Assembly (NCBI RefSeq): GCF_021044625.1
Contig: NZ_CP087999.1
Coordinates: forward strand, 1,753,001-1,817,000
Direction of reading: 5' to 3'
DNA length: 64,000 nucleotides
From: Geomonas sp. RF6
GTDB lineage: Bacteria > Desulfobacterota > Desulfuromonadia > Geobacterales > Geobacteraceae
The notes below the pieces were generated by a model, which was given only the letters and a program-made list of their open reading frames with translations, made no database searches and was not told the origin of the DNA. The translations under genes and the position numbers were made by a program. Of the stretch, positions 7,264 through 57,884 are shown in pieces. The number at the start of each line of letters is the position of its first letter. Position 1 is the first letter of the stretch.

Positions 7264-7351
7264 TCCGATATACGATAATACTAAACCACTCGCGAGGGTG
7301 GGACGGAAAGCCCAAGGGTCTCAAGTAGACAGCCGGGATGCCGAAATATCC
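7264..7351 (+). promoter_or_regulatory. GEMM-I riboswitch, cGAMP-type (GEMM-Ib) candidate
   Basis: The conserved GEMM core is present. The AAACC segment is followed by a hairpin with a GCGA tetraloop (7286-7302), then GGACGGAAAGCCC with the tetraloop-receptor side, a second arm, and AGCCGGGATGCCG at 7331-7343. GATAT/ATATC at 7267-7271 and 7346-7350 close P1. Aligned by eye to the Vibrio Vc2 c-di-GMP aptamer, the base equivalent to G20 is A, three nucleotides before the first A of AAACC. G20A is the known signature of Geobacter GEMM-Ib aptamers that prefer 3',3'-cGAMP. The fold is well supported; ligand choice is inference from that base. Confidence 0.88.
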
Positions 7352-29008: not shown

Positions 29009-30412
29009 TTGGAGCAGCTAAGGAAGATTCCGAAAGTGGATAGAGTACTGGAATCTGAAGAGGTGAAAGGTCTTCTGGCCGAGTATCCGCGGACGGTCGT
29101 GCTGCGTGCTGCCCGGCTGGTACTGGAGCAGCTTCGAAAGGGAGTGCTCGCCGGGGAGGCCTCCGAGGATGCATTTTCTGCGGGCGCCATCGGCAGTGAA
29201 ATCGGCGCCGAGATCGCCCGGCTGATCGCGCCGAGCCTCAGGAAAGTTGTGAACGGCACCGGCGTCGTCGTGCACACGAACCTCGGGCGCTCCATCCTCC
29301 CGGAGCGGGCGCGCCAGGCGCTCAACGAAGTCGCATTTTCCTACTCGAATCTCGAGTTCGATCTGGAGAAGAACAGGCGAGGCAGCCGGTACGACCACGT
29401 GGAGCGGCTTATCTGCGAGCTGACCGGCGCCGAGGCCGCGCTGGTCGTCAACAACAACGCCGCCGCCGTCCTCCTTGCGCTCGGCTCGGCCGCAGCAGGG
29501 CGGGAAGCGATCGTGTCGCGCGGGGAGCTGGTGGAGATCGGCGGCTCCTTCCGCATACCCGACGTCATGCGACTTTCCGGCGTCACCCTCACCGAGGTCG
29601 GCACCACCAACAGGACGCACGCGAAAGACTACCGCGCCGCCGTCACCACCGAGACCGCACTCTTCCTGAAGGTGCACACCAGCAACTTCGCCGTAGTCGG
29701 CTTCACCGCCGAAGTGGGGATAGAGGAGATGGTCCGACTCGGGAAGGAGACGGGGGTCCCCGTGATGGCGGACATGGGGAGCGGCTCCCTCATCGACCTG
29801 AGGAAACATCTCCCGTGCGACGAGCCGAACGTGCAGGAATTTGTCCAGGCCGGCGTCGACATCATCACCTTCAGCGGCGACAAGCTTCTGGGAGGGCCGC
29901 AGGCGGGGATCATCGTGGGGAAGAAGGCATTCATCGAGCCGATGAAGAAGCACCCCCTGCTGCGCGCAGTGCGGATCGACAAGCTGACCCTTGCGAGCCT
30001 GGAGGCGACGCTCGGGCTTTATCGCGACGAGCGGGTGGCGCTGAAGGAAGTCCCGACCCTGGCGATGCTCACCGCGCCGCTGGAGGAAGTGACGCGGCGG
30101 GCAAAAGGGATCGTCCGGCAGCTGCGCCGCGCCCTCCCCGCGAGCGTGCATCTCTCGCTCATCCACGGAGAATCGCAGGGGGGAGGAGGAACCCTGCCGC
30201 TGCTGAACCTCCCCACTCTCCTGATCGAAGTGGCAGTCGACGGGCTGTCCCCGAACGAACTGGAGGCGGCGCTGAGGACGAGCGAGATTCCGGTGATCGG
30301 CAGGATCTGGAAGGGGTCATACGTGCTCGACCCCCGCACGTTGCTGGAAGAGGACGTAGCCTACCTTGCCGCAGCTCTCGGAGCGACCGCGCGGGCGGGA
30401 TCGCGAGAGTAG
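29009..30412 (+). CDS. selA: L-seryl-tRNA(Sec) selenium transferase
   Basis: A 467-residue PLP enzyme converting Ser-tRNA(Sec) to Sec-tRNA(Sec) with selenophosphate. Features: VNGTGVVVHTNLGRS, SRYDHVERLICELTGAE, VVNNNAAAVLLAL, MADMGSGSLIDL, and the PLP-lysine motif FSGDKLLGGPQAG. Length matches E. coli SelA (463). The start is TTG 29009, placed six bases after AAAGGAGG; no in-frame ATG fits the family N-terminus. tRNA-Sec lies 60 bp downstream, so a Sec synthesis locus is present. selB and selD are not in the window. Confidence 0.97.
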   Translation: MEQLRKIPKVDRVLESEEVKGLLAEYPRTVVLRAARLVLEQLRKGVLAGEASEDAFSAGAIGSEIGAEIARLIAPSLRKVVNGTGVVVHTNLGRSILPERARQALNEVAFSYSNLEFDLEKNRRGSRYDHVERLICELTGAEAALVVNNNAAAVLLALGSAAAGREAIVSRGELVEIGGSFRIPDVMRLSGVTLTEVGTTNRTHAKDYRAAVTTETALFLKVHTSNFAVVGFTAEVGIEEMVRLGKETGVPVMADMGSGSLIDLRKHLPCDEPNVQEFVQAGVDIITFSGDKLLGGPQAGIIVGKKAFIEPMKKHPLLRAVRIDKLTLASLEATLGLYRDERVALKEVPTLAMLTAPLEEVTRRAKGIVRQLRRALPASVHLSLIHGESQGGGGTLPLLNLPTLLIEVAVDGLSPNELEAALRTSEIPVIGRIWKGSYVLDPRTLLEEDVAYLAAALGATARAGSRE

Positions 30413-30472: not shown

Positions 30473-30570
30473 GGAAGCACGACCGTCGCTGGTGGGCGGC
30501 CCGGTCTTCAAAACCGGTGTGGGGGGTGAGAAGCCTCCCAGGTGGGTTCGATTCCCATGTGCTTCCGCCA
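30473..30570 (+). tRNA. selC: tRNA-Sec (anticodon TCA)
   Basis: A 98-nt tRNA with encoded CCA end. The acceptor stem is eight bp (GGAAGCAC at 30473-30480 with GTGCTTCC at 30559-30566), the Sec hallmark. The anticodon loop CTTCAAA carries TCA at 30508-30510. A long variable arm (GGGGGGTGAGAAGCCTCCC) and a T-arm with GGTTCGATTCC follow. It reads UGA as selenocysteine with SelB. It is downstream of selA. The last 24 bases are repeated (one base missing) at 44369-44391, marking it as an integration target. Confidence 0.98.
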
Positions 30571-37920: not shown

Positions 37921-38114
37921 AAGGCACGTGCTTCCTAAGCGGCAAAAAGAGAACGCCCCACACACTAGACGGTGCCTGACCCCCTCGAAGCCTCCCAGCC
38001 TGCCACCTTGCGCCGTGACTAAAGATCGTGTATAAACCAGTCAACAACACCTCCCAAGCCTCTCTGGCGGCCGCCGCCATGATGCTCAAACCGGGAGGTT
38101 TATTTTTTCGGGGG

Positions 38115-50671: not shown

Positions 50672-51310
50672 ATGGTACCTCCCTGTCTTGGATTTTGTGC
50701 TTCTTCTCTTTTGTAACATTGAGCAAGGAGAACAAAACCTTCATGTAACGGGCAACCTTTAAAGATTTCCACATTTTTCTGCATTGGCAACTGCGCTACA
50801 GAAAATAATCCCTTTGCACCATTTGTATAAATGTTGAACTGCAGCAAGTCTAGCGTCTGCTTTAATAAGTCATTAATCCAGTCGTTGCACTACTCTGAAC
50901 AGCAAATCCTGTTGCAAATAGAAAAGGTTCACCACAATGGTCAGATATCACTCCGTAGAGTACCTGGTATGCATGCGACCTGCAGCGGTGATATGAATGG
51001 CCAAAGGCGATACAGTGACGTTGCACATCGGCTGCGTGAGGGATCCGTAGATCACAGCAGCATGTAAAGTTGTAGAGGGGTCTTTCCCGCCTGCAAAGCT
51101 GTTGTGCATTTCCAGAGGACAGTTACAGTTAAACCCATTGACGACCAAGCCCGTCAGCCTGGATGCGGAGGAAGCAAGGTCATTGTGCAGGATGAGTGAA
51201 GTTTCCCTGGCCGCCCCCACATTAAAGTCGAGCATCTAGCCCGGCAAGACTGCAGCGCCCCCGAAGATCGAACCGCGCAACAGGTCGTATATGAAAGCAA
51301 GGAGGGCAAG
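50672..51310. other. Intergenic stretch with a possible decayed ORF
   Basis: The minus strand at 50948-51235 is open for 95 codons (MLDFNVGAARETSLILHND onward) and reads upstream as GSIFGGAAVLPG after a TAG, so it may be a broken gene. It has a Cys- and Asn-rich middle (GFNCNCPLEMHN). I see no ribosome-binding site and no family match. The plus strand offers the ribosome-binding site AAGGAGGG for the gene at 51311. Confidence 0.3.
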
Positions 51311-51970
51311 ATGAACGACTTCGAACGCCACGTCCGAGCATACGTCATTCAGACGCTGCGCGACACCTCTGTTGCCCCTTCTGCCGCAACCATTGCTTCT
51401 GCTCTTGGGTCATCAGAAGGTGATGTCTGCCTGGCATTGCAGCGCCTGGCTGACGAGCACCGGCTTGTTCTACTTCCAGGCACAGAATCAGTGTGGATGG
51501 CGCATCCCTTCTCGGCCATACCGACTGATTTCCTTGTTCGCATTGGGGATAGGAGCTGGTACGCGAACTGCGTTTGGGACGGGCTTTCCATTCTTGCACT
51601 GATGGGGGACGGGGTACTGGAAACGCATTCTCCGGCAACAGGCGAGCCTATGCGATTCTCCGTCACGGAGGGCCGCGTGGAGGGAGAGGGTCTCGTTCAC
51701 TTTCTCGTACCCGCAAAGGCGTTCTGGGAGGATATCGCCTTTACCTGAGCGAACATTGCAGCCTTCCGGTCGGAAGGAGAACTGGAAGAATGGCTGAAGT
51801 CCAGAAGCTATCAGAAAGGAGCGGTGGTAGCCCCCGAAACTCTCTATAATCTTGGGGTAGATTGGTATGCAAGACGCCTCGATTTCAGCTGGGAGCCTGC
51901 CAGCGCCATGCAGGCTACGGAGCTGTTCGCAAAGCATGGGCTCACGAGCGCGTTCTGGTCCCTCTTGTAG
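51311..51970 (+). CDS. merB: MerB/alkylmercury-lyase-like selenoprotein (Sec at TGA 51746)
   Basis: Read through TGA 51746-51748, this frame gives 219 residues to TAG 51968, close to MerB (212). WYANCVWDGL holds the first catalytic Cys and Asp (C87, D90; C96 and D99 in plasmid R831b MerB). After the TGA, ANIAAFRSEGELEEWLKS aligns with the segment following MerB Cys159 (HHVHFFAS and a later EDW), placing Sec146 exactly at that cysteine. A hairpin CCTTCC/GGAAGG with loop GGTC sits 13 nt after the TGA. selA and tRNA-Sec are 21 kb away. GGAGG precedes the ATG. Family role: cleaving C-Hg bonds; here the substrate is unproven. Without Sec the product is 145 residues, lacking the active site. Confidence 0.85.
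51746..51777 (+). promoter_or_regulatory. Bacterial SECIS candidate for the MerB-like gene
   Basis: The TGA (51746-51748) is followed after 13 nt by a perfect 6-bp stem, CCTTCC (51762-51767) and GGAAGG (51772-51777), with a tetraloop GGTC (51768-51771). The loop is 20-23 nt past the TGA; in E. coli fdhF the AGGUCU loop is 18-23 nt past. The shared GGUC is the SelB contact region. Confidence 0.85.
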
Positions 51971-55016: not shown

Positions 55017-56191
55017 CCTTCGGACTTTCCGCCGTTGCTGCAGGACTAGCTGGAAAGCTGGGCGAAATGAAAACGCCTGAACGCACGGGTTCGCCCGAGT
55101 TCAAGAAGAGGCAGGCGATCCGCGAGTACAATGCTCTGCTCGACCGGACAGATCCAACCCAGCCGGCTGGGGCGCCGAACATGCCGTGTCTGCGCAGTGA
55201 AAAGGCGTCGCGGAGGAAGAAAAGGCACGACCTGATAAGGAAAGCACAGAATAATGCAGCTATTGAAGCAGACCCTGCGAAGAAAACAGCTATTCTGGCA
55301 TCGGCGGATCGGCTTGCTAAGGACATGGATCGAGTCGAGGATGCGAGACTGGCACTTCATACCTACACAGCGAACGAAGTAGAGGCTGAGCAGGAGGCGT
55401 TCCTGAAGCCATTGCGAAATGAAGCGCCCCCTGGGTTCAAGATGGCGTCCCTTGATGAGATGGCGGAAGATTTTGGAGTCGACAAGGCGAAGCTCACGGA
55501 CCTCCTGAATCCTGAAAAGAACCCCAGCCAGAGGATAATGGTGTATGAGCGCGATGTTGAGTTACTTGGTCCTGGCCCCAAATACACAATAGCCTTCCGT
55601 GGGTCGACGCTTGATGAGGCAGACTGGAACAATAACGGTCAAAATGAAGCTGGCTTCGAGGCACCGCATCAGGCCAATGCTGCGGCGCTTGGGATCTTTC
55701 TCGCAAAAGGTGCGGAAAAAAAATCGCTCGATATAGACACTTTAGTTAGTGCAACGGGGCACTCAAAAGGGGGATCTGAAGCACAGGCGTTTGCCGCAGC
55801 TTCAGGGAGTTCTGCTCGCATATATAATCCCGCAGGCTTTGATCCCGCTCAATACTCATTGACGCATAATGTAAGGCCGAGTCAGATGAGAATCGATCGT
55901 ACCACGGTCATTGATCGTGACGCCGATGGTGAAATGATTGAGTCTACACCTCTTGAACCCCACACCGACCCCCTATATTTCGCCCAACATTGCGGCATCA
56001 CTCAGTTCATAATGAAAAAGCCAGTGACAACCGGCCCACCCCGAGAGCTGGCACCCATTGATCCAGATCTCAGCGTGCCAAGCACAGAGGAGTCGAATAC
56101 CGAAGCGCATTCCATGCTTCAGGTTATAGAGGCACTTGAACGAGACAAAAGAAGGGATCAAGGAGGATTGAACAGCTATGTTGGAGGGTAA
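55013..56191 (+). CDS. Lipase-like alpha/beta-hydrolase, possible secreted effector
   Basis: A 392-residue protein. Residues 1-120 are charged and helical (KKRQAIREYNALLDRTDPTQ, KRHDLIRKAQNNAAIEAD) with no signal peptide; residues 170-280 resemble a lipase_3/Tle fold with YTIAFRGSTLDEADW and the nucleophile elbow GHSKGGSEAQAFAAASG; HTDPLYFAQHCGI may supply later residues. The absence of a signal peptide, an adaptor-like gene in front and two immunity-like lipoproteins after fit a type VI or contact-dependent phospholipase effector. No T6SS genes are in the window. Confidence 0.8.
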   Translation: MTFGLSAVAAGLAGKLGEMKTPERTGSPEFKKRQAIREYNALLDRTDPTQPAGAPNMPCLRSEKASRRKKRHDLIRKAQNNAAIEADPAKKTAILASADRLAKDMDRVEDARLALHTYTANEVEAEQEAFLKPLRNEAPPGFKMASLDEMAEDFGVDKAKLTDLLNPEKNPSQRIMVYERDVELLGPGPKYTIAFRGSTLDEADWNNNGQNEAGFEAPHQANAAALGIFLAKGAEKKSLDIDTLVSATGHSKGGSEAQAFAAASGSSARIYNPAGFDPAQYSLTHNVRPSQMRIDRTTVIDRDADGEMIESTPLEPHTDPLYFAQHCGITQFIMKKPVTTGPPRELAPIDPDLSVPSTEESNTEAHSMLQVIEALERDKRRDQGGLNSYVGG

Positions 56192-56192
56192 C

Positions 56193-57026
56193 GTGCGACC
56201 TGCCGCAAACACTGCCCCGGCAGCTGAGATCAGGAGGCTTTTGAGGCAACTCATTTCATCCAGTCTTTTGCTTCTGTTGACTGGAAGCTGCAGCGAGACA
56301 AAGGGAGTCACAATGAATCCAGAGACATATTTTTCCGGCCAGCAACTTGCCGCTTACAATCTAGCGCGACGCGGCGAGACAGAGCGGTTGCTCAAGGCTG
56401 TAAAGGAAGGGGTCGACCTAAACTGTCCTGGGCAGCAGAGACTTACTATGCTGGGGTTTGCTGTACTTACAGCTGACCACGACGCCATTGTTAACCTTGT
56501 GCGGGCTGGAGCCAATCCAAATCAAGTGATTCCCAGAGCAGGATCCCCGGCCATCCTTGCAATAACAAAACACTTCAATCCACCCCGAACTGAAGCGGTT
56601 GCAGCACTGCTAGATGCTGGGTATGACCCCAACCAGATTCTCGGCGAAGGGACACCCTACTTGTTTTACTTTGTCGACTACAGCCACTGGCTAGGCCTGA
56701 GGCTTGCCCTGCAGCGGGGCGGCAATATCAATGTGAGAAGGTCAAACGGCGAATCGCTTCTTGCGTATGTCGTAGAAAGGGGAGAGCTATCTCAGGCACG
56801 CGACCTGATTGCAGCAGGCGCAGATGTCACGCTACGTAGCGCACAAGACGATACCGCCCTACTTGCCATTGAGTACCATATCCGTCGAGGTGACCCTTCA
56901 TTGCGGGAGGTGTGGAGGGAGATGCTCGAGTTCCGGGAGTTCCTCCTCAGCAAGCTGACCGATCCAAAAGACCGCCGCACTGTTTTTACCGATCTGGTAG
57001 AGGAGAAGATCCGCCAGAATCCTTGA
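56193..57026 (+). CDS. Ankyrin-repeat lipoprotein, putative immunity protein 1
   Basis: A 277-residue lipoprotein: signal peptide SSSLLLLLTGSC with lipobox Cys, then ankyrin-like repeats (LGFAVLTADHDAIVNLVRAG, AVAALLDAGYDPNQIL, YVVERGELSQARDLIAAGAD). GTG 56193 is chosen: GGAGGGTAAC precedes it, and the paralogue at 57051 starts in the same way (GTGCGA), giving identical lengths. The upstream ATG at 56178 overlaps the lipase end. Anchored in the outer membrane or periplasm it could block the lipase; this is inferred from position. Confidence 0.8.
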   Translation: MRPAANTAPAAEIRRLLRQLISSSLLLLLTGSCSETKGVTMNPETYFSGQQLAAYNLARRGETERLLKAVKEGVDLNCPGQQRLTMLGFAVLTADHDAIVNLVRAGANPNQVIPRAGSPAILAITKHFNPPRTEAVAALLDAGYDPNQILGEGTPYLFYFVDYSHWLGLRLALQRGGNINVRRSNGESLLAYVVERGELSQARDLIAAGADVTLRSAQDDTALLAIEYHIRRGDPSLREVWREMLEFREFLLSKLTDPKDRRTVFTDLVEEKIRQNP

Positions 57027-57050
57027 AGTGACGCTGTCTTGGAGGATATC

Positions 57051-57884
57051 GTGCGACTTAAGGCGAATCGAGGCTCCTCAAGGGCTGAAAATATTCTGAA
57101 ACGGCTATTTCCAGCCGGCCTTCTGCTTGTTCTGCTTGGGAGCTGTAGTAGCGAAACAAGCGGGAGCACGCTGAATCCTGAGAGGTATTTTTCAGGCCAG
57201 CAACTCGCCGCTTACCATCTGGCGCAACGCGGCGAGACAGAGCGGTTGATGAAGTCGGTACGGGATGGGGTTGATTTAAACAGCCCGGGTTATCAAGAAA
57301 TCACTATGCTTGGGTTTGCAGTTGTTACAGCTGATCACAAAGCCATTGTTAGCCTGATGCGTGCCGGAGCGAATCCAAATCAGATAATTCCCAGAGCAGG
57401 ATCCCCGGCGGTGCTTGCGATAACACAACACTTCAATCCACCCCGAACCGAAGCGGTTGCAGCACTGCTGGATGCTGGCTATGACCCCAACCAGATCCTC
57501 GGCGCAGGCAGACCCTATTTGTTCTACTTTGTGGATTACTTTCACTGGGCAGGCTTAAGGCTGGCACTGCACCGGGGCGGCGACATCAATGTAAGAAGGA
57601 CCAATGGCAAGTCCCTTCTTACCTATGTTGTGGAACGGGGTGATCTATCCCACGCACGTGACTTAATTGCTGCAGGCGCAGATGTCACCCTCCGCAGCAC
57701 ACGAGACGACACCGCGCTACTTGCCATTGAGAGTCACATCCGCCGAGGGGACCCTTCGATACGGGAGGTGTGGAGGGAGATGCTTGATTTCCGGGAGTTG
57801 CTCCTCAGCAAACTGACCGATCCAAAGGATCGCCGCACCGTTTTCACCGATCTGGTAGAGGAGAAGATCCGCCAGAATCCTTGA
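57051..57884 (+). CDS. Ankyrin-repeat lipoprotein, putative immunity protein 2
   Basis: A 277-residue paralogue of the previous gene, with near-identical stretches (AGSPAVLAITQHFNPPRTEA; LTDPKDRRTVFTDLVEEKI) and lipobox LLVLLGSCSSE. It begins 24 bp after it with GTG 57051 preceded by GGAGG. Duplicated immunity genes with diverged spacer segments are typical of polymorphic toxin loci, where they protect against variant effectors. Confidence 0.8.
   Translation: MRLKANRGSSRAENILKRLFPAGLLLVLLGSCSSETSGSTLNPERYFSGQQLAAYHLAQRGETERLMKSVRDGVDLNSPGYQEITMLGFAVVTADHKAIVSLMRAGANPNQIIPRAGSPAVLAITQHFNPPRTEAVAALLDAGYDPNQILGAGRPYLFYFVDYFHWAGLRLALHRGGDINVRRTNGKSLLTYVVERGDLSHARDLIAAGADVTLRSTRDDTALLAIESHIRRGDPSIREVWREMLDFRELLLSKLTDPKDRRTVFTDLVEEKIRQNP

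Follow-up and report, generated by a model that had tools for sequence, protein, structure and literature searches.

An in-frame UGA in a MerB-like gene of Geomonas sp. RF6 is, judging from the sequence and its relatives, almost certainly read as selenocysteine (Sec), at the position held by the catalytic Cys159 in the alkylmercury lyase MerB. The full explanation favored here, with a probability of roughly two in three, is that the gene encodes a MerB-superfamily enzyme with a Cys87-Asp90-Sec146 active site, decoded through a SECIS element and acting on a soft organometal outside any mer operon. The protein belongs to an apparently undescribed clade, distinct from the known MerB-like selenoprotein SaoL. 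Coordinates refer to the window, by which we mean the whole stretch of 64,000 nucleotides that was analyzed (Table 1).

Table 1. Features of the window that bear on the selenoprotein gene and its decoding
Feature	Position	Strand	Evidence
selA, L-seryl-tRNA(Sec) selenium transferase	29009..30412	+	PF03841, 505 bits
selC, tRNA-Sec with UCA anticodon, just 3' of selA	30473..30566	+	ARAGORN (end given as 30570); Rfam RF01852, 77.4 bits
AGGAGG ribosome-binding site	51300..51305	+	read from sequence
MerB-like selenoprotein gene, 219 codons + TAG, internal UGA as probable Sec146	51311..51970	+	PF03243 match; orthologues L003 and L004
Cys87 codon, equivalent to MerB Cys96	51569..51571	+	alignments
Asp90 codon, equivalent to MerB Asp99	51578..51580	+	alignments
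UGA codon 146, probable selenocysteine, equivalent to MerB Cys159	51746..51748	+	UGA kept in L003 and L004; column identity in 107 proteins
Putative bacterial SECIS hairpin, CCUUCC-GGUC-GGAAGG	51762..51777	+	13 nt after the UGA; loop conservation and covariation

The ATG start of the reading frame has its AGGAGG five bases upstream, and the single internal stop is the TGA at codon 146. Translated through this codon, the protein matches PF03243 over residues 67-186 (81.9 bits, E 4.8e-23, above the gathering score of 27 bits), and the match crosses the TGA, extending from profile position 1 to position 125 of 126. In phmmer alignments with MerB sequences from the PDB, residue 146 falls on Cys159, C87 on Cys96, and D90 on Asp99. 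The wild-type entry has a gap beside its Cys159-Cys160 pair; assignment of residue 146 to position 159 rests on the C160S entry 3f2g, where it is clearest, and on an alignment of 107 relatives. The same phmmer alignment places a Ser at the equivalent of MerB Cys117, and the residue before the predicted Sec is Thr145, giving a Thr-Sec (TU) pair. A preliminary description of this DNA had proposed an in-frame TGA at the Cys159 position of a 219-codon MerB-like gene, with Cys87 and Asp90 as the C96/D99 pair and a C-terminal part that continues the family pattern; the open reading frame, the Pfam match, and both sets of alignments bear this out. That description had also located selA and tRNA-Sec in the same window, as profile searches and ARAGORN confirm, and SelB is encoded in the genome outside the window (373.6 bits).

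Three relatives of the protein (L003, L004, and L005) were found by scanning genomes, one for each species; the viral contigs searched contained none. In an Acidobacteria metagenome-assembled genome (MAG) (L003, 58% identical) and a Promineifilum MAG of the Chloroflexota (L004, 60% identical), a TGA stands at the identical codon, followed by in-frame continuation, and the motif FTUANIxAFRSE is common to both. Amino-acid identity is 0.59-0.61 over the 145 codons before the TGA and 0.56-0.59 over the 73 after it, and differences at codon positions 1/2/3 amount to ~0.29/0.23/0.64 before and 0.25-0.33/0.25-0.29/0.64 after. Such equal identity and substitution pattern on both sides indicates that the sequence beyond the UGA is under the same coding constraint as that ahead of it. 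The third relative, from an Actinobacteria MAG (L005), was considered as a fourth orthologue and set aside as uninformative, possibly a broken copy, since it goes out of frame ten codons ahead of position 146. Both tRNA-Sec and SelB score above cut-off in the genomes of L003 and L005; the L004 genome has tRNA-Sec, and SelB was not found there above cut-off. Presence of tRNA-Sec was tried as a way to tell Sec-type from Cys-type genomes and discarded, at 44/53 versus 23/27 genomes under strict filters, with many of the MAGs incomplete.

The hairpin downstream of the UGA was surveyed across 59 UGA genes that carry the motif U-x5-F-x-S. Its distance from the TGA, its GGUC loop, and its likeness to the fdhF SECIS were given correctly in the preliminary description, and the loop recurs in 58 of the 59 genes. 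The six base pairs on the loop side form in 58, 59, 59, 59, 58, and 57 of the 59. Arg encoded within the loop uses CGG in all 49 of 49 cases, versus a CGG share of 25.5% in the rest of these genes. Nine genes have Trp (UGG) in place of this Arg, with Ser encoded by UCA, so that the closing C-G pair becomes U-A and the loop is kept. Among 26 representative sequences, the covariation score reaches 0.299, versus 0.139 after shuffling (none of 500 shuffles as high), and in four of the pairs both partners vary. Sliding the partner strand by 1-3 columns, a control that removes the effect of relatedness as shuffling does not, lowers the fraction of paired cells from 96% to 50-62%. Taken alone, the folding z-score of the single window sequence is weak (-1.6 to -2.1). 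An Rfam search over 51700-51860 with E up to 10 matched no SECIS family; the library need not contain such an element. The Cys-type relatives inspected form anywhere from 0 to 6 of the 6 pairs, which stem from the shared protein motif, and have no stem with a GGUC loop; one of them (L009) has the CGG TCT codons and lacks the stem. Only one of the 59 UGA genes, L067 (Cys-Glu-UGA), lacks the loop; its protein is nearly identical to that of L047, with UGA versus UGC at the Cys159 column. Its UGA may be a point mutation, a sequencing error, or a nascent Sec codon, and given the missing loop and the near-identical Cys homologue it is not counted as support.

These observations bear directly on whether the UGA is instead a true stop, with a 145-residue truncated MerB-like protein as the product and the remainder a decayed remnant. 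Translation table 11 reads UGA as a stop, and UGA terminates the rhodanese, HDOD, and IS30 genes of the window, an ordinary usage that also excludes an altered genetic code as the explanation; broken copies do occur, as L005 illustrates. Against termination at this codon stand the equal purifying selection before and after it, the retention of UGA across phyla, the covarying hairpin, and the Cys found at this position in relatives, which together make a true stop exceedingly improbable. Cys occupies the column of Sec146 in L009, L010, L127, L128, and canonical MerB, and the placement of Sec at the Cys159 position claimed in the preliminary description is thus upheld by the conserved UGA, the distant Cys relatives, and the hairpin. 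Homologues with a genuine stop at position 146, looked for among the relatives as possible counterevidence, were not found, and relatives do have Cys or Sec there. A further possibility is regulated read-through, in which short and long proteins would both be functional and their ratio would be set by selenium supply. Decoding of UGA by SelB competes with release factor in general, but the short form would be without one of the two metal-binding residues and nothing specific speaks in favor of such regulation, which we regard as improbable. Decoding of the UGA as Sec146 is the reading carried forward here.

To examine the wider family, PF03243 was searched with read-through of stops in three sets of genomes: 395 from the window's own phylum, 350 from that of L004, and 347 from that of L003. 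The window's phylum gave 61 matches, of which 36 have two in-frame TGA codons, 8 have one, 16 have none, and one has TAA; the window-type gene is the only member of its clade among those 395 genomes. Single-TGA genes are numerous in the other two phyla, with the motif NC(V/I/A)WD ... DIxxTUxxMLLFRSEE. Across 107 proteins, the Cys96/Asp99/Cys159 columns read CDC in 27, CDU in 25, UEU in 24, UDU in 13, CEC in 8, CCC in 3, and CEU in 1, with six others. Within the MerB domain, every UGA of the 63 UGA-containing genes lies at the Cys96 or the Cys159 column; other UGAs occur only 3' of the domain, where the printed frame is beyond the likely gene end. A maximum-likelihood tree (quick search) unites the window protein with L003 and L004 (SH-aLRT 100) inside a wider clade of 25 proteins from at least three phyla (support 96; 21 CDU, with UGA, 3 CCC, and 1 SDW). 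The fewest changes on this tree are at least eight for Sec at the 159 column and two for Sec at the 96 column, gains and losses being undistinguished. Two further genes, L098 (G133, YTUPLINFF) and L099 (G397, SLURKMVF), have a single UGA at Cys159 and fall outside both the SaoL and the window clades.

Both catalytic positions are UGA in 37 of the 63 genes, and one of these is in the window's own genome: a second MerB-family gene (G000:C1:786472-786831, minus strand; the full gene is seen in L031/L002). Its two UGAs fall in the columns of Cys96 and Cys159 (WYGQ-U-GME ... GGA-U-SRMNLFRSEE); Glu takes the place of Asp99, and the second UGA is followed by a GGUC hairpin. The 24 genes of this UEU type form a single clade, as do those of UDU type (L074, L077, L078, L079, L081-L085, L147-L149, and L152; YAA-U-AVD ... 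DAF-U-xxSVFFWSEEHAR), each with support of 100. Asp99 is kept in the UDU clade, and in three of its members a gene for a MarR-type regulator directly precedes the MerB-like one. These double-Sec proteins share with the window protein the PF03243 domain, Sec at Cys159, and the GGUC hairpin after that UGA; they differ in having Sec also at Cys96 and, in the UEU clade, Glu at Asp99. Literature searches, as far as they reached, found no description of either double-Sec clade.

Likeness to MerB itself (PF03243, NF009710, NF033555; PDB 1s6l, 3f0o) extends to the predicted fold, with its N-terminal winged-helix-like region, and to equivalents of Cys96, Asp99, and the catalytic residue 159. Differences lie in the replacement of Cys159 by Sec, conservative in kind, in the Ser for Cys at 117, and in the lack of a mer operon. 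Scores against the MerB equivalog models stay far below their cut-offs (NF009710, 33.2 of 193 bits; NF033555, 23.4 of 200 bits). The structure model, computed from four sequences, is of moderate quality (mean pLDDT 66.5, with residues 136-151 around Sec146 below 50); a Foldseek search of the PDB with it gave MerB entries for all of the top eleven matches (E 4e-8 to 1e-5, TM 0.40-0.47), and a MerB fold is predicted on this basis. The MerB-like 99Ser/117alt variants (PMC8261052) also depart from the signature residues, and the window protein would be of the 117alt type; those variants keep Cys159, and the survey that reported them makes no mention of selenocysteine.

In MerB, the metal can bind either catalytic Cys and Asp99 supplies the proton that goes to carbon (PMC4525700), after which thiols take off the Hg; selones that mimic organomercurial lyase react faster than thiones do (PMC11639659). 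From this chemistry we infer that the window protein is probably a C-metal lyase with a selenolate ligand. After charging by SelA, tRNA-Sec would be brought to the UGA by SelB, guided by the GGUC-loop hairpin, to yield an active site in which Cys87-Asp90-Sec146 would stand in place of Cys96-Asp99-Cys159. By analogy with MerB, a low-pKa selenolate at 146, Cys87, or both would bind the soft metal of an organometallic substrate, and the proton of the other residue would pass to Asp90, which would then protonate the carbon leaving group. The metal would stay between Cys87 and Sec146 until removed by cellular thiols. Its substrates most likely belong to the organomercurials or to other soft organometal(loid)s, and mercury is suggested tentatively as the main one.

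Neighbors of the window gene with Pfam matches are EcsC, a deaminase, a rhodanese, TetR, and a B12-radical SAM protein; neither this gene nor L003 or L004 adjoins merA, merR, merP, or merT, and neighborhood clustering gave no conserved neighbor for the window clade. A MerA homologue is present in the genome (G000:C1:1180609-1181997, 491 bits against the TIGR02053 cut-off of 454), the only one above cut-off, in a 642-codon open frame distant from both MerB-like genes. Elsewhere in the window, there are a c-di-GMP-I riboswitch (7270-7345, RF01051), an Rfam match to abiF RNA just over its gathering score (38050-38099, RF03085), and, at 56178-57884, two adjacent, very similar open reading frames with ankyrin-like repeats and signal-peptide-like N-termini (judged by eye), apparently a tandem duplication.

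What kind of protein this is may be framed in other ways. Sec-containing MerB-like proteins are named SaoL or "alkylmercury lyase MerB-like protein" in PMC13188914 and PMC9312934, the first of which cites Haft and Gwadz 2023 for SaoL as a MerB-like organometallic lyase (NCBIfam NF040728). The preliminary description, which named no earlier Sec-containing MerB, needs correction in this respect: SaoL has Sec in the same column, and a Sec-containing MerB-like protein is thus known as a kind. Identity of the window protein with SaoL would fit the common PF03243 superfamily, the shared column, and the retained Cys96 and Asp99, and two genes that pass the NF040728 cut-off (L036 and L041, 175 and 149 bits) have a "CU" motif with UGA in the Cys159 column. 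It is nevertheless very improbable. The window protein reaches 24.1 bits where the cut-off is 140, has Thr-Sec where SaoL has Cys-Sec, and sits in a separate clade; a joint clade is rejected with modest strength (p-AU 0.03), for a grouping chosen post hoc, after the tree, and under a constraint that also expels the CCC and SDW rows. The NF040728 model ends about at the Sec position. No Sao partner genes (SaoA/B/C/P/T/X) were seen among the neighbors with Pfam matches, no NCBIfam model scores above cut-off for the window clade, and literature searches found no description of it, the SaoL literature being known via a 2026 review. A second alternative accepts the MerB fold and the Sec and assigns the protein a role other than with mercury, on another organometal(loid) or, instead of C-metal cleavage, in sequestering metal or selenium or in redox chemistry; this is a serious contender, at somewhat below even odds. 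Five Cys-type genes adjoin mercuric-reductase-like genes and others MerR-type regulators, whereas the same surveys (flanks of ~1.5-5 kb) found no gene of either kind beside any Sec-type gene. Some relatives replace Asp99 with Glu (UEU, CEC) or Cys (CCC), a hint that their chemistry has diverged; Cu(II) binding is reported for D99S MerB-like variants (PMC8261052), and SaoL is named simply an "organometallic lyase." Tight Se-Hg binding could also slow product release, a point against the favored explanation. In the other direction, a full C-D-C/U catalytic set together with the MerB fold points to some form of C-metal chemistry. Of the mercury-carbon lyase envisaged in the preliminary description, the lyase part is likely; action on mercury is unproven, as mer genes are missing from the neighborhood, whereas ordinary Cys-type merB genes in these surveys often have merA or merR next to them.

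For the Cys-Asp-Sec enzyme preferred here, the wider meaning can be put only tentatively. The MerB superfamily in anaerobic and environmental bacteria might consist largely of selenoproteins, and at least three undescribed Sec clades (Cys-Asp-Sec, Sec-Glu-Sec, and Sec-Asp-Sec) might constitute a solitary, mer-independent route that cleaves or captures methylmercury or another soft organometal. Because mercury is bound far more tightly by selenium than by sulfur, a C-Hg lyase with a selenol would directly test the reason for nature's use of Sec, and the occurrence of natural C/C, C/U, and U/U active sites within a single fold offers a ready series for comparing selenium with sulfur. The finding bears as well on possible methylmercury degradation by bacteria without mer operons. 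Sec-type MerB-like genes are invisible to standard annotation, since the UGA truncates them at the catalytic residue or ahead of it, and they would be missed by surveys that demand Cys96, Asp99, and Cys159; demethylation potential estimated from merB may as a result be understated.
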